From Tenrec ecaudatus (Eukaryota > Chordata > Mammalia > Afrosoricida > Tenrecidae), in the NCBI RefSeq assembly GCF_050624435.1, contig NC_134539.1, positions 142,944,025 to 143,008,024 of the forward strand: 64,000 bases of DNA. The letters run 5' to 3'. This document shows, piece by piece, positions 7,011-60,830 of the stretch. Under the pieces are notes generated by a model. The model was not told where the DNA came from and did not search any database. It saw only the letters and a list, made by a program, of their open reading frames with translations. How positions within the stretch are numbered: the first letter of the stretch is position 1; each line of letters begins with the position of its first letter. Made by a program: the position numbers and the translations under genes.

Positions 7011-8388
7011 AAGTTGCTGAATAAATTCAGTGTTCTAACCTGCGTGTCTGTGTTTAAAGTATTTAACCCCACCTGCATCTCTATACATAGAAATGCAGGA
7101 GAACCATTTGGAAAGATAAGCCTCCAACACTGGTTTGGGGTCAGTACATAGAACTGGGGATGAGGCTGTTGGGGGCTTGAGCTTTTTCTTTTACATGAGT
7201 ATTCACAAAGAGCTTACATGCCTTTCCTGAATCACATTTTAAAATCTAAGTGTATGAACAAAAACTGAGCGGTGACAGCCAGACATCCCCGCTTCCCTCC
7301 TTGACTGACAGCTTGGAGTGCCAGTCCTAGAGTCAGGTTGGCCAAAAACGGAACACAAATTGGCAGACCTGTGAAGAATTGGAGGTGAAACTGGATTGCG
7401 TCATCGAAGCGTCCAGGTGAAGCAGGACTGTCTTCTGTAAGTGCTGCAATTTTGAAATGCTGAGGCAAACAACCGGCTCTGGGAAAAGACGTGCTCGGCG
7501 GCTCCGGGTGCCTGGGACGTTGACATCCCCGTGTGTACAGGAGACGCTATCTGGCAGCTGGCCCCTTTCTTGGGGTGTGTGTGTGTGGGGGGGGTGTCTC
7601 CCAGCCTCTGGTGTGCTTCCTGTTCTCCGAGAGAGGCCGACTCCCTCCTGGGACACCAGGTGCTCTGGATCACTGTTTTGTGTCTCAGTGTTTATGAGGG
7701 TGATGTAAAACACACACAAGTTGAAGCCAGGTCTCTGACTTCAGGAACAGAAGAATGTAATCATACCCTTACTACCTACCGGTCCACTTGCACTTTACCT
7801 TAAGACAGTGGTTCTCTACCTTCCTCATGCCGGGACTCCTTCATTGCTACTTCGTCACTGTCATTTTGCTACTGTTATGAATCAGGCGACCTCTGTGAAA
7901 GGGTCATTTGACCCCGAAAGCAGTCGTGACCCACAGGTTGAGAACCGCTGCCTTAAGGTAACACTGTGCATGCGAAAAACAAGATTTTGTCGGCTTATGA
8001 GATGATGGCTAATTTTTCTGAACCAGTGTGCAGGGCAAAAGCCATTTCTAGTCACGTTACCCTGGGTTGTGGAACACTACACTTTGCTTGGCTAGTGTTG
8101 TAGTAGAAGCAGCACTGCATATAAATGTGTGTAAGAAATGCAGTGTGTGTTAAAGCCTTTTCAGCAGAAACACACAAAACAAGGCCCTGTGCCCATTGCT
8201 TAGTGACAGTGTTATGGCCCGAGGCTCAGAGGGACCTAACCCCCTTTCTCTTCGGGGCGTGGCAGGGCTCGGCGCAGCCCACTCCTACACGGTGGCCGCG
8301 GGCACGAGACTCCCGGGGTAACGGGATGAGTGGAGTGTGCCGGACCGGAAGGCGGGCCTGTGCGGAGCTCATCTTGGATGTGTTGCAG
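7011..8388. other. DCAF7 intron 1, 3' end
   Basis: Apart from the SPIN copy at 7806 I see nothing specific. A G/T-rich run lies at 7576-7600. The last bases TGTTGCAG are the exon 2 acceptor. Confidence 0.5.
7806..7950 (-). mobile_element. Short SPIN derivative (145 bp)
   Basis: Only the two ends of SPIN remain, joined by an internal deletion. Flanking 8-mers CCTTAAGA (7798) and CCTTAAGG (7951) differ at one base. Located in DCAF7 intron 1, 440 bp before exon 2. Confidence 0.88.
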
Positions 8389-11300
8389 GTCCAGCTCGTT
8401 GGTTTGGACGAGGAGAGCTCGGAGTTTATTTGCCGGAATACCTTTGACCACCCCTATCCCACCACAAAGCTGATGTGGATCCCTGACACAAAAGGCGTCT
8501 ACCCCGACCTGCTGGCGACCAGCGGCGACTATCTCCGGGTGTGGCGGGTAAGCAGTGGGCCCCGTTACTGTCACCTGTTGTCAGCAGCCTGCTATCCTAG
8601 CAGCCCCAGAGGGCCAGTGGCCGTGTGTCAGCACCGACCTTGTGTGCCTCCATAGCCAGGCTTGCCAGGGTTCCTGGAAGCCATGCTGCTGGCTATAGAG
8701 TCAGCTGCCCCAGAAGCCGGGGCCCCGAAGGAAAGATGGAGGCCTGCTCTGGGTGTGGGGGGTCTGAGGCCTCATCTGCATCACAGCCCAGATGTTTTTG
8801 AGTAACTAAAACGAAATACCAGGCCACTGATCCTAGTAACGTTAGTGGAGTGGGAATCTCATGTCAGCGGCCCCTCCTACCACCTGGAAGCCATGGAGCC
8901 CAGAGGTGAGGCCTCTCTGCTAGAAAGATTTGGGGAAGGGAACTGAGGAAGCAAATCTGCACAGAGGAGGTTTGGAAGGAAAGCAGTAGCATTCGGGGCT
9001 GCCTCTCGGATTTCTCCCTTACTCCCACCCCCATGTGGTAGGTTCCGAAGAGACTGTGCACCACGTTTTAAAGGCCTTCTGAGCGGCTCTGCCTGCCTGA
9101 CCGGGTCACACTTGTTTCTTCAGGTTGGTGAGACGGAGACCAGGCTGGAGTGTTTGCTAAACAACAACAAGAACTCAGACTTCTGTGCCCCTCTGACCTC
9201 CTTTGACTGGAACGAGGTGGACCCCTATCTTTTAGGTGAGGAAGTCGGGGGGGCCGGGGATTCCTATTGGAAGGAAGAAAGATCTGGTGGTGGGGGGTTT
9301 TGTACCCGGTGGTGTGTTAGTCTGGGTAGACTAGAGAAACAATTCATAAACATGCATATGTGTATGGGAAAGAGCTTTATTTACCAGAGCAATTGAATAT
9401 TAAGAAAACAGCCCAGTCCAGATCAAGTCCATAAGTTCGATATTAGCCCATATGTCTGATAACAATCTATAAAGTCCTCTTCAGACTCATGGAACACATG
9501 CAATGACGCCGAGTGCAGGAAGATCACGGACCAGTGGGTACAAAGTCTTCTCGTGGCGGTCGAAGCATCTCAGCACTGGCAGGGGTCTCTGAGTGGCTCC
9601 TTTCGTCCACGGGGCACAGGGTTGACCAGCACAGAGCCATGTGTCAACAGCAGAGCTTCTCAGGGAGTGAGCAGAGAGAGTGTCTCTCCCGCCTCCAAGG
9701 AGGACATCCCGGAGTCCACACAGAGGCCTTATTGGCTATAACCCCATTGACAGACTAGACTCCACCCCTTCACTGTTATCCTCAAATTGACAAACGATTA
9801 CATAACAACCACAGGTGGCCTGGCTCGTGAGAATCACAGCCTAGGGAAACTGCAGGCTCACTAGGCTGTGGGTGGTAGTCATGCTGGCGCCGAGCTCTCT
9901 GTGTGTGAACATCTTGTCTCTCTGGTCACATATGACCCTCCTGCACTGTGTGTGGGCATGTCCCCAGGGCTGGGCAGATGAGGGAGCACAAGCCTGGGGT
10001 GGTGGGGAGCCTGCGTGAGAACCAGTCACTGACTTGCACCGGTTGCTTCTTTCAGGTACCTCAAGCATTGATACAACTTGTACCATCTGGGGGCTGGAGA
10101 CGGGGCAAGTGCTGGGGCGAGTGAACCTTGTGTCTGGCCACGTGAAGACGCAGCTGATCGCTCACGACAAAGAGGTGATGGCGCTGTCGGGTCCTCTCCC
10201 GGCGAGTGCTTTCTGTGCCCGCAGCATGAGAGGGCAGGCTGTTTGCCCACAGCTTTGCAAATGACTTCAAAAGTCTTAATACAATGGCCGATTTCTTCTG
10301 GGAAATCATGTGTGCAAGCGGTCGTGGCCCACCACTGCAAACGAAGGCCTGCTTTGACTGGCACGAGGAATGGTTCTGAGGCTGCTGTCCTTTTGATTAA
10401 TGACACCGCTCGCGGGCAAACTGGCAGCTGCTGTGCTTTAACAAACACACGCTCCCAACCTGAGAGCACTTGGGCTTCTCCGTGGGGCAGCAGGGAGAGG
10501 GCCTTGGAGATGGCAGCAAACAGAGGCAGAATCTTTGGACAGACAAACCCAAATTGTCAGTCTTTCTCAAAAAACGTTTTATGCAGCGGTTCGCAACCTG
10601 TGGTCGTGACCCCTTCGGGGGTCAAACAACCCTTTCACGGGGATCGCCCGATTCATGACACTAGCAACATGACAGTGATGAAGTAGCAATGAAAATAATG
10701 TTATGGTTGGGGGGTCACCACACATGAGGAAGCGTATGAAAGAGTCGCAGCCTGAGGAAGGTGGAGACCCACTGGTTTTATGGAATTCCAGTATGCTAGT
10801 GCTTGTGCTTTACCATGATTTAGAATTAAGTTTGTGCTTCATACACTTATTTCAGGTTGTCGGGTTTCTTGCGTGTTGTTGGAAGAGCTGAGGGTGCTCT
10901 GCGGCTGTGTTTAGTGGAAGCACTCTCCCAGGTGACTGGGACATGGTCGTGCATGCTTTTCCGCGGGAGCGGCTGCTCGTTCCTGCTTCTTTGACTCCCT
11001 GTAGGGACTGTCATTGCTCTGCTTTTTGCAGCTAGAGACGTGCCGCATCTGTACAAATGAAAAGAACATTTGACCTTAGGTCAGAAACAGAGCCGTCCGC
11101 AGGCTAGGAGGTTGGCGCCCAAGCTGCCCTGCTTAGTGAGGGGTTACCTTTGGCTTTGTCTACTAAAGGTCAGACCTGTAGGGAGGCCACTGGACTTAGG
11201 CTGCTGCGAAGCCAAAGGCCCAAGGAATAGCTTGTCCTGTAGAGAGAGCTTCTGGAACCTTCTTGGTATCAAATGGAACAGGTTGCTACATTTTAGTTAC

Positions 11301-24639: not shown

Positions 24640-25260
24640 TGGTGGAAAATTCCTTCTGGGGCGCGCGGGGTGCACCCGCAAAGACTGTCCGGGTCAGGGA
24701 GGAAGTAGCGCTTCGCGGCGGCAGAACCGACTCTGTGGGCGGAGGGGACGTCTTTTTGCGACGGACCTGCGGGCGGAAGTGCGGTGCGCCGGCTCGTGTC
24801 CCCGCTCCGGGCCGCCGCGGGTCGGGGTGGAGGGGACGAGGGGGCTACGGTGTTCCAGCCGTCGGCCGCGAGCCTGAGCCCCAGGGTGTCGGGGGCCGAC
24901 CGAGGCGGCCGTGGGCCTTGGGTCTGCAGACAGGACGGGCTGACCTTGGTCACTGGTAGTGGCGGGTTGCAGCTGATGGCTGTCTGGGCTGCCGCCTGTC
25001 TGAGCAGGGCCGCTGGCCGCTGCCTGCGGGCGCCGGGGTCCGGGGCCCGGGTCGCTGGTTCGCGTGTTCCCCGGCCCTCCCAGCCCGAGCCCCCGGGTGC
25101 TTGCCTCTCTCCGGGCAGGACGCTGCACGTCTCGGCGGCTGTCCTCGCCGGGCATAACAAGTGGTCCAAAGTCCGGCATATCAAGGGCCCCAAAGACACC
25201 GAAAGGAGTCGCATCTTCACCAAGCTCTCTCTGAGTATCCGCCTGGCTGTCAAAGGTGAG
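24640..25260 (+). promoter_or_regulatory. TACO1: TACO1 CpG-island promoter and exon 1
   Basis: The sequence changes abruptly from AT-rich repeat to CpG-dense DNA at about 24640 and returns to ordinary composition after the exon 1 donor. I see no TATA box in the expected place, so a CpG-type dispersed start is likely. A SPIN remnant and a LINE tail sit directly against the 5' edge. Confidence 0.6.
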
Positions 25261-28200
25261 GGCCCCGGGCCGATGGTCACCCACCTTAAGTGGGTGGTGG
25301 CTACCGTTACCCTCACTGACCCCCAGGGATGGCTTGCCTCCCGGAGCGGGTTCAAGGCTGGCGCAACCTTTCCCCTCCAACCAAACCCATTGGGCTCGAG
25401 TCTGTTCTGACCCATAGTGACCCCTTAAGACAGTCGCACGGCTCCGTAGGGCCCCCGAGGCTGTCAATCCTTACGGAGGCCAACTGCTTCAGTCTCTCTC
25501 CAGAGTGCCTGCTGGGTTGACCTTGTCCTTGATGAGCAGCTGAGGGCTTTAACTACTGCGATTCTATTCTAGGGCTCCTCAGCGGCTCTCACCTAACCCA
25601 GTCCTGCCCAGTATCTGCCGTCTCCTGGCAACCCCCAAAGGGCCGAGTAGACCTGTCCAGAGGGTTTCAGAGATTGCTTACACCTGTACAAGAGCAGAAT
25701 GGCCAGTTGGTTTGAACCTGGGACCTGGAGGTTAGCAGCCCCAAGTGGAACCCACGATGCCACCAGGACTCCTCCTCACCCCTTTCCTCAGACAGGCTCC
25801 TCTTTCCTTACCTCAGTGCCCACTGCGGCTCCCCCTTCAGAATGCCTCAAAACCCTCACCTACAATGGTGGTTTCGGTCAACTTTTCAGACCAACCTTTG
25901 GCCAGTTCTCTGGGAGGGAGGTGCTCTTGGGAAGATAAGGTAAATGTGCCTTCATCCTAGGCTGTAGTTAGATACTTCATAGAAACAAATCCTACAAGGT
26001 AGGTCAGCTGTGTGCCCCTCTTGAGGAGGTGAGGCAAGCTCTCTGCCAGCCAATGGTGGGCCGGAGGCATGGACTGCAGTTAGGGCTTGCCTGTGGTTGG
26101 TTTTCTGAGGGTTTCCTGGGACACATATCCTTAGAAGAGATGTCTGCCCAGGTCTTTTTTCCGCTGTGCAGCTATCCTCCGAAGGGGGTTTCGTTTGCTT
26201 GTTTTGCATTTGGTGCCAGACACCTGGAGGGGTGGAGAAGAGGCCCTGCCACATGCATGGACTTTAGAGGGAGGAGCACTTGGTTTCGGTCACGAACTGA
26301 CCTTGAGAGATGTCCTTGTGAAGGAGCATAATGTCACCGAGTTTTAGATATCCTTTTCTATAAACTGGGACAATGCTCACCTTGAGGTAGTGTTGGGCAC
26401 ATAATAAGCATTCAGTGAATGCTCATTCACACACACACAAATTCACGCCTCATGTTTCACTTTGCTTTCTTTAAACTCAATATCGAGTCTGAACAGCAGT
26501 GTGTGTGAGTGCACATGCACGCAGCAGCTCTGGTGGTGGCATGGGTTACTTGCTGGGCTGCTCATTGCCAAGGTCAGTGGTTTGAAGTCTCCAGTTGCTC
26601 CAAGAGAGGAAAATGAGGCTTCTGTAACTTTTTACCACCTATGAAGCCCAAGGAGCAGTTCTACTGCGCCCTGTAGGGGTGTCTGAGTCAGAATCGGCTT
26701 GCTGACAGATCTTTGAGTGTTGTCTGTTTCTTCTGTGCCAGGCCTGGTAACACAAGGATAATGGCCTATAGTTCCTACCTCAGAGAGAGAGTATGATTAG
26801 AAGGTCGTGTGAGCATCTCAGTAAGTATGCAGGAAGTTGTAGAATCATTAGAGTTGGGGTTTTTAACAAGTCAAGGAGCCGTTAGGACCTTCTACACCCC
26901 TTCCCTTTTCACCTGGCAATAGAGTGACCTCACGGAAAGAGACACCTCTTTAAAGGTAGAATGTGAATTCAAGCTTCTTTTCCAAAACACTATCCTACTC
27001 AAACCCTGGAATTGTTCTTAACCAACCAGACATAAATGGAGTGGTGACCTGCCACTCTTTTGACTGATGGAATAAGGAAAAGCAAAAAGCCAGTTATTTG
27101 CCGCGAGTCGATTCCAGCCCGTAGTGACCCTGAAGCACCAAGTAGAACTGCCCCCTGGGGTCTCTAAGGCTGTGATTCCTGCAGAAGCAGACTGCCACGG
27201 CTTTCTCCCAGAGTGATTGCTGGGCTCCAACTCCTTTTCAGTTAGCAGCCAAGTGCTTAACTACTGCACTGCCAGAGTAGTGGGGGCGGGGACTGGTTAG
27301 GGAAAGCAATCACAAATCCCTTGTGTTGTCCATGCTGTAATAAGATGCTTTCACTCGTTCCTTTCTCTTTCTCAGAGGGAGGTGCCAACCCTGAGCTCAA
27401 CAGCAACCTGGCCCACATCTTAGAGGTGTGCCGCACCAAGCACATGCCCAAGGCCACGATTGAGGCAGCCATGAAAATGGAGGTGTGTCCGTAGTTGGGC
27501 ATTCTTGTTATTGATCACAGTCCCCACTGGGTCCGTGTCTGGAAGGCTGCCACGCATGCGTCGAATGATCAGAGCGGGGTAGCAGTGAGCGTGACATCCT
27601 CAACTCAGAGACGCTGTGTCCTTGAGCCTTGGTTGCAGGAGCAGTCAGGAATAGGGTGGACAGTGCCCAGGGACTCCGCCCTTTGGTGAGGAGATGGGGT
27701 AGAAGACGGGCACTGGATGGGGAAAGGCCTGAACCTGGGTTGTGGAAGGGTTTGTGTAGGCCCTGGAGGAGAAAATCCAGTAGAAAAGGTCAGGGTGCCA
27801 GTGGTAGTAATGGTGGGAAGGACCAGGATGTAGAGTCCCAGTGTGGGAATTGTCTGCAGACACAGGTGAGAGGACACCGCTTTTTCTGGGACTAGTAGTT
27901 AGAATCTGAGAAAGTAATCATCTTAACAGCGCATGGTGACTGAGCGCTTACTGTGGGCCAAGCACTTAGGTAATAACCCGTCCTATAACTCATCGTGAAT
28001 ACGCAGAACAAATTTGACCGGAAACTGAAGCACAGCAAAGTTAGGTGACTTGTCTAGGGTCACAGAGAAAACATTAGACGCACAGCCAGACAGATTCCAG
28101 AGACTTGGCTTTCACCTCCCTGTGCATATAAAGGTGGTGGAGACTGCATAGGCTGTCCCTTGTCTGGTGGTGTTTTAGCTGCTTGTGAATGAGGAGGAGA

Positions 28201-52620: not shown

Positions 52621-54135
52621 ACAATAGGTGCAGCCTTCTGTGGCACCAGGGCTCCGTCAGCAGCACAGCCTGTGGATGGCACTTGGGGTTTACAGAGCCC
52701 TTTCACAGAGGGGCTGAGAGCAGCCAGGAGGCAAACCCAGATCTTGGGACTCCAGAGCATTTCTACCACGCATAAGTCATACGACGTTCCTTCTATAACC
52801 TTCGTTGTTCCACCTAAAAGATAGGCCTAGTCATACCCAACAAGTCTGCCTTTTAAGGTTCTCGTCAGATGAGTGCCATAATGCAGTACTTTGAACATTG
52901 TAAGGTGGATGTACAAACACACGTAAAGTCGTGGTGCGAACGCTGTGTCCATTGGGGCTCTGGGATTGCGGGTCTGAGCTGCTGAGAACTTCGAACCAGA
53001 GCATGGAATTGAGGGCGTGGTGGCTTTTCTGCCTGCACAGGATTGTCCTTCCTGGCACCCTGTTGGACCCTGTTTCCACTAGTACTTATTTCTCTTGAAT
53101 CTCAGCAAAATGGCAGGTAGAGGCATTGAACAAACACCAGAGTCGGGTTAATCCTCCATGTGTTCACTGTTGGGTACTTCTCAATGCAGAAGCTACTGTC
53201 CTGGGGCCAGCAGGGCCTGACTGTCCATTCTGGAAGAAGGGTCCTCTTTCCAGGAGCTGCCCCCTAGCAAGGGAGGGGATTGAGACCACTGCTCTGTCTC
53301 TTTCCGCTCCCCCCGCCCCCCGCCCCTTTCGAAGGGGCTTGTGGATTGGCCAATTTGAAAATAGAACACACTGAAAGCAACATAGAAGCTTGGCATTCAT
53401 TACATTTTGTAAGAAAGTTACTGTATAATCCTATCTTTCAGTGATCTTTGGGCTTTTCCTGAGCTATATTTACAGATAAGATGTTGGTAAAACATTTAAC
53501 CCAGGTGTGGATGTTCTCCAGCAAATACAGGGCAGTGGAGCAATGCAGAATCAGGGAGAGGGTCCGAGGGCTGATGGCTAAAGAGCCCTTTGCCAGGACA
53601 GAGTGGTTCACAAACCTTTGTCGAATAAACAGTTGCTTTTTCTGGATTACTTAGTGTTCTCTCGGGTTGGCTACATGCATAGCTGTCAAATTCGGACTTT
53701 GAGAAGATCATAGCTTAGACTAACTTCAGGATCATCCTTCACTCCTGCGATCAGCCTGGAGGCCTGAACTGTCTCTCCTGGGGCATGACTCTCAGGACTG
53801 CTTTCACCACATTGGCTGTGGAGGCCCGGGGACTTGAACCTGCCTAGACCTGAATTCCTGTATGGGAATTCTTCACTTATGCGCTGTAACCCCTCTTCAT
53901 TCAGTCCAGCACGTGCTTATGTCCAAGCTACTTGAGTCATGCGTATGCTTTGTGCCCCAGGAAATAATACATGTGAGAAAAAAGTGAAGGTGGCATGTGG
54001 CTTTGCCTCAAAAGATACAGGGATGCTAAGTTCAGTGGGAGGGTGAGCTTGGGCTAAAAGCTTCACAGATTACTTCTACAGGAATGGTGCGTGAACCGGG
54101 CCATGAAGGGTGTATAAAAAAAAGTTCATTGTTGG
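52621..54135. other. MAP3K3 intron 3, unassigned
   Basis: No gene or repeat named. A C-rich run (CCCCCGCCCCCCGCCCC) lies at about 53310-53328. Confidence 0.4.
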
Positions 54136-54300
54136 CATTTTGTGCCATTGAGTGGATTCTAACCCAGGGTAACCCAGGGTAACCCATGGTAACCCATGGT
54201 AGCGTCTTGGCTGTAATCTCTACAGAGCAGATTGGTCTTCTGTGATGTGACTCTGGGTAGATCCAGACCCGGACTCCGGACCTTGTAAAAGTCTGTGAGG
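54136..54300 (-). repeat. AfroSINE with a 10-bp tandem expansion
   Basis: The stretch AACCCAGGGT is repeated about four times (54161-54200), the last two units as AACCCATGGT, inside the 3' part of the SINE. Confidence 0.55.
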
Positions 54301-54494
54301 TGGAAAGGAGGGCACGCCTGCTTGGGAACCAGAATGAGTAAAGGCCTAGGAGTAGAAAGGCCTGTGGCGTAGCTGAAGGCATGAAGTGGGCACTGATCTT
54401 ACAGGAGAGGAGAGCTCCTGTTGGAGCAGGGTGAGGCACTGAGGTAAGCTGAATGAGCCCACATACCAGAGGTCTCTTAGGATTTAGACTACAT

Positions 54495-54690
54495 GTTCTC
54501 AAGATTATTCGACCTACTGCCCCTTTTCAGAAAATTTAGGAATTATACAGTGCCCCCTGGCAATTAAAAACCTAAACTGTAGCCCATAATCCAGGATAAA
54601 GCATAGGTATCTGTTATTACAGACCATCTGGATCGTTCCAGGGTCCCCCAGGGGGCGCCATCACCCACTTTAGGAAACACTGCCATAGAT
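54495..54690. mobile_element. Ancient MER-type DNA transposon remnant
   Basis: Recognised from CGACCTACTGCCCCTTTTCAG at the left and CACCCACTTTAGGAAACACTG at the right. It contains a CTCF-like word (CCCCCAGGGGGCGCC at 54645-54659). The LINE at 54711 inserted just after it. Confidence 0.45.
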
Positions 54691-54710
54691 TGGTCACTGG
54701 TTGCTTTTTT

Positions 54711-55706
54711 TTTTTTTTTTAACAATTTATTGGGGCTCATACAATTCTTTTCACAGTTCATACATATACATACATCAATTGTATAAAGCACATCTGTACA
54801 GTCTTTGCCCTAATCATTTTTTTCTCTTTTCTTCTTTTACATTTTATTAGGGACTCATACAACTCTTACCACAATCCATACATATACATACATCAATTGT
54901 ATACAGCACATCCATACATTCCCTGCCCCAATCATTCTCAAGGCATTTGCTCTCCACTTAAGCCCCTTGCATCAGGTCCTCTTTTTTTTCCCCCCTCCCT
55001 CCCCATTCCCCCCTCCCTCATATGCCCTTGGTAATTTATACATCGTTATTTTGTCATATCTTGCCCTATCCGGAGTCTCCCTTCCCCCCTTCTCTGCTGT
55101 CCCTCTCCCAGGGAAGAGGTCACATGTGGATCCTTGTAATCAGTTCCCCCTTTCCAACCCACTCACCCTCCACTCTCCCAGCATCGTCCCTCACACCCTT
55201 GGTCCTGAAGGTATCATCCACCCTGGATTCCCTGTACCTCCAACCCTCATATGCACCAGTGTACAGCCTCTGTCCTATCCAGCCCTGCAAGGTAGAATTC
55301 GGATCATGGTAGTTGGGGGGAGGAAGCATCCAGGATCTGGGGGAAAGCTGTGTTCTTCATCGGTACTACCTCGCACCCTAATTAACCCATCTCCTCTCCT
55401 AAACCCCTCTATGAGGGGCTCTCCATTGGTCGACACTTGGGCCTTGGGTCTCCACTCTGCACTTCCCCCTTCATTTAATATGATATATATATATATATAC
55501 ACATATACATATACACATATATACACATACATACACACACTTATATCTTTTTTTTTTTTGCATGATGCCTTATACCTGGTCCCTTGGGCACCTCGTGATC
55601 GCACTGGCCGGTGTGCTTCTTCCATGTGGGCTTATTTGCTTCTGAGCTAGATGGCCGCTTGTTCACCTTCAAGCCTTTAAGACCCCAGACACTATCTGGA
55701 GGAAAA
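54711..55706 (-). mobile_element. LINE insertion with two tails and one target duplication
   Basis: Flanked by a perfect 15-bp duplication ACTGGTTGCTTTTTT (54696-54710, 55707-55721). Read on the minus strand, an 870-bp copy runs to its AATAAAATG, then an A-rich joint, then a second 110-bp tail ending in AATAAATTG and a long A-run. Contains an (AT)/(CA) microsatellite at 55480-55545. Confidence 0.75.
55480..55545. repeat. AT/CA microsatellite inside a LINE
   Basis: Alternating TATATATATA, CACATATACATATACACATA and ACACACAC units. Confidence 0.8.
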
Positions 55707-55775
55707 ACTGGTTGCTTTTTTAACAAGGGATGTGAATGGATTGGAAGGGAGAGATGCCGAGAGGTTTCCATCTGG

Positions 55776-55955
55776 GATCAAGTCCAGATTCCAACTCCTG
55801 TAACCTGTGAGGACCCAGAACTGCCTGGTAGGGATCTCTGAGGCTATAAGACCTTTATACAGCAAGCTGTTTCCTCTTTCTCCCTCAGATTGGCTGCTGG
55901 ACTGCCATCTTTTACCTAGCCACCTTGTGTTCAACCCTCTGCGCCACCAGAGCTC
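55776..55955 (-). repeat. AfroSINE
   Basis: GTCCAGATTCCAACTCCTG to CTGCGCCACCAGAGCTCC. Confidence 0.75.
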
Positions 55956-56566
55956 CTTCCAGGAGACGTGAGGCAGGAATCCAGGAATGAGGGGAAGGGG
56001 GCCCAGCAAGGGTGGTCACGGGGAGAGTAGGAGGCTTGGGGGTAGGACGGGCTCTGAGGGGAGAGGAGGAACACCTCAGCGAGCAGGCCTGCACCTGCAT
56101 GGCTGAGCAGTGGTGCCAGCATTGGAGTGACTGGTTTGGGAGGGTGCCTGATGCCGACACAGAGAGAGAAAGTGATTTTGGGGTCACAGTGAAACAATTC
56201 TGTGGTTTTTGTGGATCCACAGTTCTTATCTGTAAGTCTAAAATCCACAAAAATACTGCAAATTAAGCAGCTTGTTTTGTTTCGTAAATTTGTAACAAAA
56301 AACATTTGGCAATAAAACTCTGCTTGAACTGACACAGGATAATTTTAGTCTCTTTCTTCCACTCACTGGGACTAGTCCTACTTGTCAGTTAAGGACCAGG
56401 AGAGCTGGGATACCTAGCACCTGTGGTGTCACCCCAGTATCCCAGCAACTTTAGCACAATGGAAGTTGTGCATCATGTCCATCGTGAGAGAGGGAAGGCT
56501 GGTACCTTTCCACAGTCAGTTAGGGCCCCAGACTGATGGAAGAACTGTTGGCCGCCTACCCTACCA

Positions 56567-57317
56567 CAGCGGTTCTCAACTTGTGGGTCGCGACCCCTTT
56601 GTGGGGTGCAAACAACTGTTTCACAAAAGTTGTCTAAGACCATCAAACAACACAAAAATATTTCACAATATATAATTACATATTGTTTTGTGATTAGTCA
56701 CTATGCTTTAACACCCCTGGCGGTCTAATTAGGTCAGTAATTTTGTACCCAAAGTGGTACATTGTTTTGTATAAAATTTGTTGTTTTATATTATAGGCCT
56801 GTAATTCTTAAGAAATTACTCATTTTAATATCTCTAGTTGACATTCAGGTATGATAAACTTTAATATACAAAATCATAAATTATAATTTAATAAATATAA
56901 AAATAATATAATTTTTTCAATAATGTAATCAAACCAAAAACAAAATTTTTCATAAAGGGTGCAACATCAAGGGTGAAATCAATAAAAATCCTGGGTGTGA
57001 AAAACTTTGAAACATGGACTTCACAGAGTCCGACGTCACAATCAGGACAATGGAGCCTGGTTTCCTTTCGTGTTCTCTTTCCATGGCCATCTCGCTCAGG
57101 GTTACCGCTTCTGACAGTTAACATTTACCCCGAGCCACACTCGGGATTACCGCCAGGGAGGTTAATTATGTTCAATTTGCAATGATGAAAACCCTGCATA
57201 TCGGATATTTACATTACGATTAATAACAAAATTAGTTATGAAGTTGCAATGAAAATCATTTTTTATGGTTAAGGGTCACCACCACCTAAGGACCTGTATT
57301 CAGGTTGAGAACCACTG
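56567..57317 (+). mobile_element. SPIN-type hAT transposon interrupted by a piggyBac-like insert
   Basis: Ends are CAGCGGTTCTCAACTTGTGG and ...GGTTGAGAACCACTG, the SPIN terminal inverted repeats. Perfect 8-bp target duplications CCCTACCA flank it (56559-56566 and 57318-57325). Without the 450-bp insert and its 4-bp TTAA duplication it is about 297 bp, shorter than the 476-bp copy at 58072, so it also carries an internal deletion. It is non-autonomous with no transposase. Confidence 0.9.
56712..57161. mobile_element. piggyBac-like non-autonomous element (450 bp) inside SPIN
   Basis: Flanked on both sides by TTAA (56708-56711 and 57162-57165), the specific piggyBac target. Its ends form inverted repeats: CACCCCTGGCGGT on the left and CCTCCCTGGCGGT read inward from the right. 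The interior is AT-rich and has no transposase. SPIN sequence resumes exactly at the right TTAA (TTAATTATGTTCAATTTG), so the insertion is younger than that SPIN copy. Confidence 0.85.
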
Positions 57318-57596
57318 CCCTACCATCTGGACCATGTGGCCACCAAGGAAGAGCATGGAGAGCTCAGTGTTCTTTGTGACTCTTGGTCAGAACTCGTCAC
57401 AGGCCCCCAGTGACCTGCACGAGGGGCTAGGAAGTGCAGCAAGTACACCGAGTCCTTGTGAGCAGGCTGCCTCTGCCACAGGGGGCTGTGTCGCACACCC
57501 TGGGGGCTCACGTGCTCGGGAGAAGGTGCACCAGCTGACCTCTCAAAATCAGAAAGGTTTTCATTCATTCTGAATCATCTTTTGACCCCCGAGGGA

Positions 57597-58060
57597 TTTT
57601 TTTTTATATCATGGATCACTTTTATTAAAAGCATTATTGCTACATTTGGTAGCAATTTACATTTTATCCCACATGCTAGCAGTTTCAAAGGAAAAAACAA
57701 AGATATCACACACACACAAAAGATGTCACAGCAACAACAACAAAAGCTACGTTTACAAAGTAAAGGATGAAAATAGCAGCTATACGACAGGCTAATTATA
57801 TGCTAATTATGTACAGTGACTAATTATTGGGCAACCTCAAAAGCAAGAGATTTGAACCACAATCTACAGACTTCTAAATCCACAACCTTGAACTAGCTTC
57901 TCACAATCGGGTGTCTCAGCTTCAAGTTAGAGGAATATTTCGGTCGCTTTAATCTGCAGCAGGTATGTTTAAGGTACACTCCAGATCCATTAGTCTGATG
58001 TGGCCTATGAAGAATATTGTACACCTACAGACAATACTAGGCGGATTCTCCCAATCAGAG
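57597..58060 (-). pseudogene. Retroposed mRNA 3' end, source gene not identified
   Basis: Read on the minus strand, this AT-rich stretch ends ...TTTTAATAAAAGTGATCC followed by a poly(A) run (the T-run at 57597-57605, with TTTATT at 57621-57626). That is the layout of a processed mRNA tail. No coding part was recognised, so it is a 5'-truncated retrocopy of a 3' UTR or an unrecognised poly(A) retroposon. It lies in MAP3K3 intron 3, antisense to the gene. Confidence 0.4.
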
Positions 58061-58071
58061 TCTGCTTAAGC

Positions 58072-58547
58072 CAGCGGTTCTCAGCCTGTAGCTTGTGACC
58101 CCTTTGGGGGTTGAATGACTCTTTCACAGGGGTTGTCTAAGACCATCAGAAAACACCTTTTCCCCATGGTCTTAGGCACCAAGACTTGGCTCCTCTATCT
58201 GTCTCCTGGTGGGTCCGCCCACATGCAGATACACCCACATACGAGTACCCGGTGTAAAGACTGTTATCCATGCTACACCATGCTTCAAAACAAAATGTCA
58301 TTCATTCGTAACTAGAAATAAGTATTTTGCAAGATATAATTACATATTATTTTGTGATTCATCACTGCTTTAATTATGTTAAGTGTATAACAATGAAAAT
58401 ACATCCTGCATCAGATATTTACATGATGGTTTATAACCAGCAAAATTAGAGTTATGAAGTAGCAATGAAAATAATTTTATGGTTGGGGTCACTACAACAT
58501 GAGGGAACTATAAAGGGTCGAGGCATCAGGAAGGTTGAGAACCACTG
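58072..58547 (+). mobile_element. SPIN non-autonomous hAT element, near full length
   Basis: A 476-bp copy bounded by CAGCGGTTCTCAGCC and GGTTGAGAACCACTG. Target duplications are GCTTAAGC and GTTTAAGC (58064-58071, 58548-58555; one mismatch). It holds the diagnostic middle portion (CTGTCTCCTGGTGGGTCCGC and ACACCATGCTTCAAAACAAA). It lies 750 bp from the SPIN/piggyBac composite. Confidence 0.92.
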
Positions 58548-58640
58548 GTTTAAGCAATGGTAAACATTTTTGTCAGCACCAAGGGTTTTAGCAAAAGGAT
58601 TATAGTCCTGAATTATTATTTGTTGAACACAGATTATATG

Positions 58641-58812
58641 TGAGGAGTCCTGATGGTGCTATTAGACTGTTAACCACAAGGTTCGTGCTTCCAACCAATC
58701 AGATGCTTCTCCAGAGAAAGATGAGGCTATCTGCTCCCATATAGATTTATAGCCTCAAACCCTATAGAAATGGTCATTATGGGTCAGAATCAATGGCAGT
58801 GGGTTTTTTGTT
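58641..58812 (+). repeat. AfroSINE
   Basis: GAGTCCTGATGGTGCTATTAG to GGGTCAGAATCAATGGCAG. Confidence 0.8.
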
Positions 58813-58828
58813 CTTCTGACCTCTTTTG

Positions 58829-59000
58829 GAGCCCCCTAGCATAATCAGTAGGGCTTAGCTGCTAAGCAAGAGGCTGTTGGTGCAGACCCACAAGTTGCCC
58901 TGGGGGAGAAAGATGTGGCAGTCTGCTTCTGTAAAGACCCTGTGAGATGCTTCTACTCTCTCCTAAGGGGTCACTCAGAGTTGTATTTCGTTTGACAACA
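58829..59000 (+). repeat. AfroSINE, tandem neighbour of the previous copy
   Basis: GGAGCCCCCTAGCATAATCAG to TAAGGGGTCACTCAGAG, in the same orientation only 17 bp after the copy at 58641. Confidence 0.75.
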
Positions 59001-59034
59001 CACAACATTCTAATCTCTTTAATCAAATTGTTTA

Positions 59035-60830
59035 ATTCTTCCAATGGTTCTATGAGCTTGAGACCATCATTATTCTCCCTTTATAGATGAGGAGACTAAG
59101 CCATAGAGAGGCTAAGTCACAAGTGCAAGATCGTGGTTAAGAAGTTGTAGAGCCAGGTGGGGGGGGGGAATGAAGAGTGGATACCCAACGTCCATCTGTA
59201 GACAGTTGGACATCCCCTTACAGAAGGCTCACAAAGAAGAAATGAGCCAGTCAGGCTGCAGTATAGCACCGATGACGCATACAACTTTCCTGTAATTTCT
59301 TAATGCTTCCTTCCCCCTACTATCATGACCTCAGTTCTACCTTACAAATCAGATAAGACCAGAACATGCACACTGCTACAGAGAAGAGCCCACAACATAA
59401 GCAATCCAAGATAGATTAACCTCACAGGGCCAACAATTAGATTAGAGATACCAGGAGGATAAGGGAAGGTAGGGGGAGAAAGGGGTCAATCATAAGGATA
59501 GACATATAAACCCCTCCCAGGAAGATGAGCAACAGAAAAGTGAGTGAAGGGTGACAGGATGATGTAAGATATGAAAACAATCTATAACTTATCAAGGGTT
59601 CATGAGGGAGGGAGGGCGGGAGAAGGAAGGGGAAAATGAGCTAATAACAAGGGCTCAAGTAGAAAGAAAATACTTTGAAAATGATAATGGCAACATATGT
59701 ACAAACATGCTTGACACAATGGATGAATATATGGATTGTGATAAGACATGTAAGAGTCCTCAATAAAAGTATTTAATAAAAAAAAGTGAAGGTAAACAAG
59801 CGGCCATCTAGCTTAGAAGAAGCACACCAGCCTGTGTGATCATGAGGTGCTGAAGGGATCAGTTATCAGACATCAAAGAACAAAAAATCATATTGTGTGC
59901 TCACCTCCATGATATGATCAGTGCATAAGCAAACAGGTACATAAGCAAATGTGGCGAAGAAAGCTGTTGGTGCCCGGCTATCAAAAGATACTGTGTCTAG
60001 GGTCTTAAAGGCTTAAAGGTAAACAAACATCTAGCTTAGAAGCAACAAAGCCCACATGGAAGAAGCACACCAGCCTGTGCGATCACAAGGTGTCGAAGGG
60101 ATCAGGTATCAGGCATCAAAGAACAAAAAATCTTATAGTGAATGAGGGTGGGAGCGTGGAGTGGAGACCCAAAGCCCATTTGTAGGCCACTGGACATCCC
60201 CTTAAAGAAGGGTCTCGGGGAGGAGATGAACCAGTCAGGGTGCAATGTAACAACAATGAAACAACTTTCCTCTAGTTCCTAAATGTTTTCTCCTCCCCCA
60301 CTATCACAATCCCAATTCTACTTTACAAATCTGGCTAGACCAGAGGATGTACACTGGTACAGATAGGAACTGGAAACACAGGGAATCCAGGACAGATGAT
60401 CCCTTCAGGACCAGTGGTGTCAGTAGTGATACTGGGAGGATAGAGGGAGGGTGGGTTGAAAAGGAAGAACTGATTACAAGGATCTACATGTGACCTCCTC
60501 CCTGGGGGATGGACAACAGAAAAGTGGGTGAAAGGAGACATCAGATGGCAAAATATGACAAAATAATAATTTATAAATTATCAAGGGTTCATGAGGGAGA
60601 GGGCAGCAGGGAGGAATGAGAAAATGAGCTGATGCCAGGGGCTTAGGTGGAGAGCAAATGTTTTGAGAACAACGAGGGCAAAGACTGTACAGATGTACTT
60701 TACACAATTGATGTATGGATTATGATAAGAGTTGTATGAGCCCCTAATAAAACAATTTTAAAAAGTTGTAGAGCCAGGATTTGCATCCCCAGGTAGTTTG
60801 ACTCTAGAGCTGCATCCTTAATACCCACAT
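59035..60830 (+). repeat. MIR SINE split by the 1.6-kb LINE
   Basis: The left half is 59035-59157 (ATAGATGAGGAGACTAAGCC) and the right half resumes after the target duplication at 60763-60830 (GCCAGGATTTGCATCCCCAG). Together they read as one continuous MIR. Confidence 0.75.
59158..60762 (+). mobile_element. 1.6-kb LINE insertion, two units head-to-tail, splitting a MIR
   Basis: The 16-bp duplication AAGTTGTAGAGCCAGG (59142-59157 and 60763-60778) encloses the whole block. Unit one (59158-59788) ends CAATAAAAGTATTTAAT plus A-run; unit two runs from 59790 to the final CCCCTAATAAAACAA. Unit one is of the GACACAATGGATG subfamily, unit two of the TACACAATTGATG subfamily. Inside unit two the segment starting GGTAAACAAGCGGCC is itself present twice. 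Confidence 0.75.

Follow-up and report, generated by a model that had tools for sequence, protein, structure and literature searches.

In the stretch of 64,000 nucleotides of the Tenrec ecaudatus genome that was analysed here, hereafter called the window, a 450-bp element flanked by TTAA divides a copy of the hAT transposon SPIN. This raises the question of what the element is, in which order the two insertions took place, and how the family of the element came to its host. As a kind, the insert is ordinary, namely an internally deleted piggyBac. The combined account that we favor, with a probability of about 0.85, is that SPIN inserted first, that an internally deleted piggyBac element followed within it, and that the piggyBac family, which encodes a frog-type transposase, derives from horizontal transfer. 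The frog link is new here and was absent from the preliminary description of this DNA.

Table 1. Features of the nested locus and of the neighboring long SPIN copy (positions in the window).
Feature	Position	Strand	Remarks
Left 8-bp target duplication of the SPIN insertion	56559..56566	+	CCCTACCA
SPIN (hAT) copy, whole span including the insert	56567-57317		
SPIN left part, up to the occupied TTAA	56567..56711	+	
piggyBac insertion, left TTAA target duplication	56708..56711	+	
450-bp piggyBac derivative	56712..57161	+	parental transposase on the minus strand
Left inverted end	56712..56724	+	CACCCCTGGCGGT
GCT microhomology at the internal deletion junction	57094..57096	+	from comparison with L092
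Right inverted end	57149..57161	-	minus-strand reading CCTCCCTGGCGGT
piggyBac insertion, right TTAA target duplication	57162..57165	+	
SPIN right part	57162..57317	+	
Right 8-bp target duplication of the SPIN insertion	57318..57325	+	CCCTACCA
Second, long SPIN copy	58072..58547	+	matching TTAA at 58370-58373 unoccupied; paralogous empty site

The piggyBac element is inserted at a TTAA inside the SPIN copy, and SPIN is present here as a shortened non-autonomous hAT form with an 8-bp duplication, split by the insert. The perfect SPIN duplication and the 450-bp element with inverted ends and TTAA on both sides, both reported in the preliminary description, were found again (Table 1). The inverted ends (56708-56724 and 57149-57165) agree at 15 of 17 bases including the TTAA and at 11 of 13 without it. 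Among 2,727 pairs of TTAA located 100-3000 bp apart in the window, three had inner ends with at least 11 matches in 13 bases; these were the insert and two SPIN copies that by chance adjoin TTAA. With the insert removed in silico, the site aligned as an uninterrupted SPIN of 297 bp, and the long SPIN copy about 750 bp from the nest carries the empty-site sequence GCTTTAATTATGTT. No fewer than six SPIN copies, including one that is cut short, lie in the window; a short copy of about 190 bp (10584-10774) is flanked by a perfect 8-bp duplication GTTTTATG. Used as a query, the long copy gave 10,444 first-look candidates in the T. ecaudatus genome, and the nested copy aligns to a consensus of 20 genome copies and copy B. 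From the form of their ends we take these copies to be SPIN, with whose published consensus they presumably agree.

Some other features of the window were recorded as well. An open frame on the plus strand (24784-25407) matches in part the N-terminal domain of TACO1/YebC (PF20772, E=1e-08, at the cut-off); it probably is an early exon of TACO1 and adjoins the SPIN copy that is cut short. Another plus-strand frame (8125-8655) gave no Pfam match and contains a stretch that we take to resemble DCAF7/WDR68; in human, DCAF7 and TACO1 are neighboring genes. At 54710-54936 a 118-bp unit is present in 1.9 tandem copies, and the stretch, possibly a retrotransposon tail, recurs elsewhere in the window. 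A scan of positions 54000-60000 against Rfam gave no match.

According to the preliminary description, an interior shared by other SPIN copies at the same place would speak against an independent element. The other long SPIN copy of the window is empty at this place. The occupied-junction motif had 101 matches in the genome, and among the 10 loci read the window alone was occupied at this SPIN site. In hits to the motif with two mismatches the sequence ATGCTTTTACCCCCCTGCCGG recurs (contigs C91, C93, C307, C348, C1448, C1892, and C1907), which looks like another repeat and not like the tenrec piggyBac element.

It was also considered whether the insert could belong to a different superfamily with TTAA or A/T targets, such as Chapaev3/Conan or Kolobok. 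The left end of the insert starts with CAC, and Chapaev3 Conan has been recorded in the tenrec Echinops in an account that assigns TWA duplications to Chapaev3 and CAC ends to Chapaev (PMC4079192). This identity is nonetheless extremely improbable: the right end starts with CCT, the usual form in the genome, the target duplication is TTAA, and the parental transposase is of the DDE_Tnp_1_7 type with a match to piggyBat. Hence, the combination of TWA duplication and CAC ends is not that of the insert. Kolobok, compared by its known features, was rejected on ends, duplication, and transposase.

That the insert represents a repeated family became apparent from the genome-wide searches. A search for the end motif, along the lines proposed in the preliminary description, yielded 145+107 = 252 occurrences of TTAACMYCCCTGGCGGT in the genome (3.918 Gb, window included), whereas its reversed version, used as a control, gave 2+0. 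When the insert itself served as DNA query, 1,611 first-look candidates were obtained. Forty of them were scored; one is the window copy, and the remaining 39 end at or before query position 389. Two full-length relatives with both ends, L092 (2386 bp) and L085 (2395 bp), match both outer parts of the insert. The far-end TTAA, which had not been used for finding the elements, was exact in 10 of 18 informative elements, had one mismatch in 4, and was absent or unclear in 4; this set was derived from 25 elements by leaving out 7 that had been found by both ends. Other deletion forms of about 211-214 bp and about 145 bp were present in several copies each, a 309-bp form was met once, and some measured near 1000 bp. 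The family may already be catalogued in Repbase or Dfam, although none of the papers listed on tenrec or Echinops transposons, on piggyBac transfer in frogs or mammals, and on piggyBac in Mantella reports it in the title or the opening of the abstract.

Compared with L092, the insert consists of the left 385-389 bp (to 57096) and the right 65 bp (from 57097) of an element of about 2.4 kb, and about 1.93 kb are missing. Searched in the whole T. ecaudatus genome with up to three mismatches, the deletion junction gave one match without mismatch and two with three mismatches, which were read as the intact parental right end; the junction was found at no other place. On comparison with its relatives, the 450-bp form is a one-off, internally deleted derivative of a true repeated family. 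As an amplified family in its own right it was rejected, since the junction is present once. The preliminary description held that a unit found only at this locus would not be an independent element. To the letter the junction does occur only here. Both parts of the unit, however, are members of a family that repeats in the genome, so that this demand went too far. Since the 450-bp form is a singleton, its mobility is deduced from its ends and the target duplication. Possibly, the element had its full length of 2.4 kb when it inserted into SPIN and lost its middle there, so that the 450-bp form never moved as such. The absence of the junction elsewhere in the genome and the 3-bp microhomology agree with such a course, whereas the amplification of other short forms indicates that deletion before movement happened too; we rate deletion in place at slightly below even odds.

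The minus strand of L092 carries a broken transposase, pieces of which match the Pfam family DDE_Tnp_1_7 (302 aa at 7.7e-45 and 223 aa at 7.1e-09). One piece matches the solved piggyBat transposase (9c0f) at 2.2e-26, and three aspartates align with piggyBat as a DDD triad, which we take to be the catalytic residues. The preliminary description had suggested looking for an autonomous partner with a DDD transposase; relatives of the autonomous type were found in the elements of about 2.4 kb, with the transposase decayed. TTAA duplication, shared short inverted ends, and a DDE_Tnp_1_7 transposase support the assignment of the family to the piggyBac superfamily. With 116 of 461 candidates scored, PF13843 gave at least 118 matches in the genome, among them PGBD-like genes, and none in 14 control genomes of unspecified kind. 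The protein of the frog Mantella gave at least 105 matches (77 of 3,235 candidates scored), 85 with stops and 20, mostly short, without. Among the stop-free matches close to the family, the longest extends over residues 92-449 of 562; a longer open match (residues 24-559) is 37% identical and probably is a PGBD-like gene. Among the 105 scored matches to the Mantella protein there was no intact full-length copy.

The statement of the preliminary description that the piggyBac-like family was moving after the arrival of SPIN is borne out by the nest in the window and by a second one, L102:1506-1650, in which a 145-bp derivative lies in another SPIN copy at a different TTAA. At L102 one TTAA now reads TTAG, and the duplication of the host SPIN agrees at 7 of 8 positions. 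Because L102 resulted from a motif search with a SPIN-like prefix, it is no measure of the frequency of such nests. None of about 63 distinct piggyBac loci besides the window, except L102, lay inside SPIN at the threshold applied. The reverse order, SPIN inside piggyBac, did not occur in the loci fetched, a sample too small to exclude such cases.

Divergence from consensus at non-CpG sites was 0.0515 for 30 left-part copies and 0.055 for the window copy. These 30 copies were drawn from the 40 best of the 1,611 candidates, after removal of hits with a span below 370 bp, of L055 and L093, which represent the window, and of L073, which duplicates L092. The short classes diverge by 0.0655 (9 copies), 0.0595 (5 copies), and 0.0645 (6 copies); they were sampled by the end motif with the ends excluded, members were picked by structure, and 4 of the 20 came from the occupied-junction motif search. 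For SPIN the value was 0.063 in 20 copies among the most similar of the 10,444 candidates, and 0.09-0.20 in eight copies met without such choice, including the window host at 0.150 and not including the copy F that is cut short. A tenrec rate of 2.9173e-9 per site per year has been quoted (PMC4079192). At this borrowed rate piggyBac would be about 18-22 million years (My) old, the 20 similar SPIN copies 22 My, and 6 of the 8 others 31-51 My; the other two, C and L110 (0.19-0.20), would exceed this age and possibly represent another subfamily.

The comparison of divergence with SPIN, which had been recommended in the preliminary description, thus gave a divided answer: SPIN copies met by chance are older than piggyBac, whereas the most similar ones are equally young. 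Likewise, the activity that had been termed recent dates to about 18-22 My at the borrowed rate, and no intact copy was left among the 105 matches. At the window site the host is diverged at 39 of 289 positions and the insert at 20 of 375 (p=0.0003), whereas at L102 host (38 of 445) and insert (9 of 101) show similar divergence (p=0.85). The window host may belong to a SPIN subfamily outside the consensus used for divergence. The order of SPIN and piggyBac follows from the nesting; the dates permit overlap, and both may have been active at the same time.

The transposase gave hints to the origin of the family. A protein search with the transposase of L092 (476 aa, each stop written as X) resulted in 112 matches, 60 of them with an organism name: 49 from frogs, 11 from arthropods, and none from mammals, in which decayed copies would escape a protein search. 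The best match was to Mantella aurantiaca, a Malagasy frog (69% over 99%). A PGBD2 search of the same protein database returned many mammals, which are thus well represented there. With the Mantella query, no mammal was named in the best 120 of 578 matches. When 30 tenrec copies were reduced to their residue majority, this sequence was 90.1% identical to Mantella (P0001) over 553 columns, 85.2% to Leptobrachium (P0004), and 84.8 and 82.8% to Rana (P0002 and P0003). These comparisons at 83-90% span 545-553 columns and are independent of the anchor protein (four were tried). Identities to Hyperolius (69-73%) and Pyxicephalus (74%) were lower. The best match of Mantella to another named genus is 82% among the matches listed, a value not strictly comparable with 90%, since taking the majority averages out the decay of the tenrec copies themselves. 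The C-terminal cysteine-rich domain PF13842 is annotated, as precomputed, in many frog relatives.

When the tenrec majority was placed in a tree with 25 selected proteins (528 columns), it and the frogs formed one clade (99.6/100) that also includes some nameless proteins. The nearest neighbor of the tenrec sequence is the contig protein P0040 (88.8/91), followed by Mantella (57.5/78) and by a group of Rana_b, Hyla, and Bufo (93/86); several deeper nodes of the frog clade have low bootstrap values (30, 38, and 44). Possibly, P0040 is a decayed copy from tenrec; in the motif TTDNFYTSP it shows Asn in place of the Asp of the frog consensus. An earlier tree of 15 proteins grouped the tenrec copies at 100 and joined them to Mantella at 68. 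A special sister relation of Mantella and tenrec was not adopted, as its support is weak (57.5/78, and 1 of 10 Mantella-private residues common to tenrec).

The transposase is nested among those of frogs, in conflict with the host tree. Most likely, therefore, the tenrec lineage acquired the family through a horizontal transfer in which the frog group was involved. Vertical inheritance from a tetrapod ancestor, with retention in frogs and tenrecs and no transfer, would be in line with the wide occurrence of domesticated piggyBac genes (PGBD) in mammals, and the lack of mammals among the protein hits leaves room for decayed, unannotated copies there. It is very improbable, however, given that the tenrec majority nests among frogs and that none of the named hits is mammalian though PGBD2 finds many mammals. 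Moreover, an identity of 83-90% to Rana, Leptobrachium, and Mantella is unexpected for neutral decay over the time separating amphibians and mammals, and the copies differ from consensus by about 5-6.6%, which indicates a young burst.

A third party, i.e. an invertebrate, a parasite or an unsampled vertebrate, could have supplied both frogs and tenrecs, so that the family did not come from frogs. The tenrec majority shares 47-52% identity with spider, stick insect, and tick proteins and 81.5% with a piece named for the ostracod Darwinula, and the nearest neighbor in the tree is P0040 and not a named frog. On the other hand, tenrec is enclosed by a diverse set of frog sequences in the tree, the Darwinula piece may be contamination, and P0040 may be tenrec-derived; we regard this source as rather unlikely. 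The piece in question, P0048 of Darwinula stevensoni, aligns over 260 columns in a record that also has PF00858, and may reflect contamination, fusion or another transfer. A viral carrier was rejected: the 26-position end motif had no match in viral contigs, and none of 322 pattern-matched viral stretches encodes a relative of the frog transposases. In bacterial genome contigs 46 stretches match a shorter motif and were treated as chance.

Horizontal transfer with frog involvement is also of interest for geographical reasons. T. ecaudatus, a member of the Afrotheria, has been called Malagasy (PMC12328210), and for two other Mantella species Madagascar is given as the place of collection (PMC9007160). 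A Malagasy (mantellid) frog as donor is no more than suggestive. More specifically, an active piggyBac may have passed between frogs (mantellids or their kin) and the tenrec lineage in Madagascar about 20 My ago, perhaps via a shared parasite, a scenario that we put forward as doubtful. Since a frog-type family is found in a Malagasy mammal, a dated horizontal transfer is likely and can be tested.

The proposed course of events is as follows. A non-autonomous SPIN inserted first, duplicating 8 bp. Later, piggyBac entered a TTAA inside SPIN, presumably by cut-and-paste with transposase supplied from elsewhere in the genome. As judged against its parents, the 2.4-kb element lost its middle, including the transposase, at the 3-bp microhomology, either before the move by failed gap repair or in place after landing. 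The family, having probably reached the tenrec lineage by horizontal transfer, spread in the ancestors of T. ecaudatus, at the borrowed rate about 18-22 million years ago. It did so both in its full length and in shortened forms of about 145, 213, 309, and 1000 bp.

Fewer than 3% of 975 vertebrate transfers have been reported to involve mammals and birds (PMC7070016). Relatives of the tenrec also took in SPIN (PMC5857283) and Conan (PMC4079192), and Madagascar has been described as a hotspot of BovB transfer among vertebrates, mantellid frogs included (PMC9007160). If our reading is true, this hotspot would extend to DNA transposons and to a mammal, and nests of piggyBac in SPIN would constitute an ordered record of successive foreign invasions of one genome. 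The question of a transfer hotspot would become testable, as the island is the same, the bursts can be dated, nests fix their order, and the sister fauna can be scored.

The host copy resembles SPIN (hAT) in its CAG...CTG ends, 8-bp duplication, and AT-rich middle, and differs in being shortened, non-autonomous, and split by the insert. SPIN has been reported as horizontally transferred in galago, murine rodents, opossum, tenrec, and vesper bats (PMC5857283). With piggyBat the tenrec family shares the TTAA duplication, short inverted ends, and the DDE_Tnp_1_7 transposase, but the match is distant (96 bits over residues 7-263). It is far closer to a group of frog proteins that carry the annotation 'piggyBac transposable element-derived protein 4' or '4-like'; in this comparison, made at the protein level, the tenrec copies are decayed whereas the frog proteins are uninterrupted predictions. 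The horizontally transferred piggyBac of mouse lemur and vesper bats likewise is a case of piggyBac entering a mammal, and the passage describing it does not name tenrec for piggyBac (PMC5857283). The main text of the BovB study mentions neither tenrec nor piggyBac (PMC9007160). In contrast to BovB, a LINE that passed from snake to frog (PMC9007160), the tenrec case concerns a DNA transposon and a mammal.
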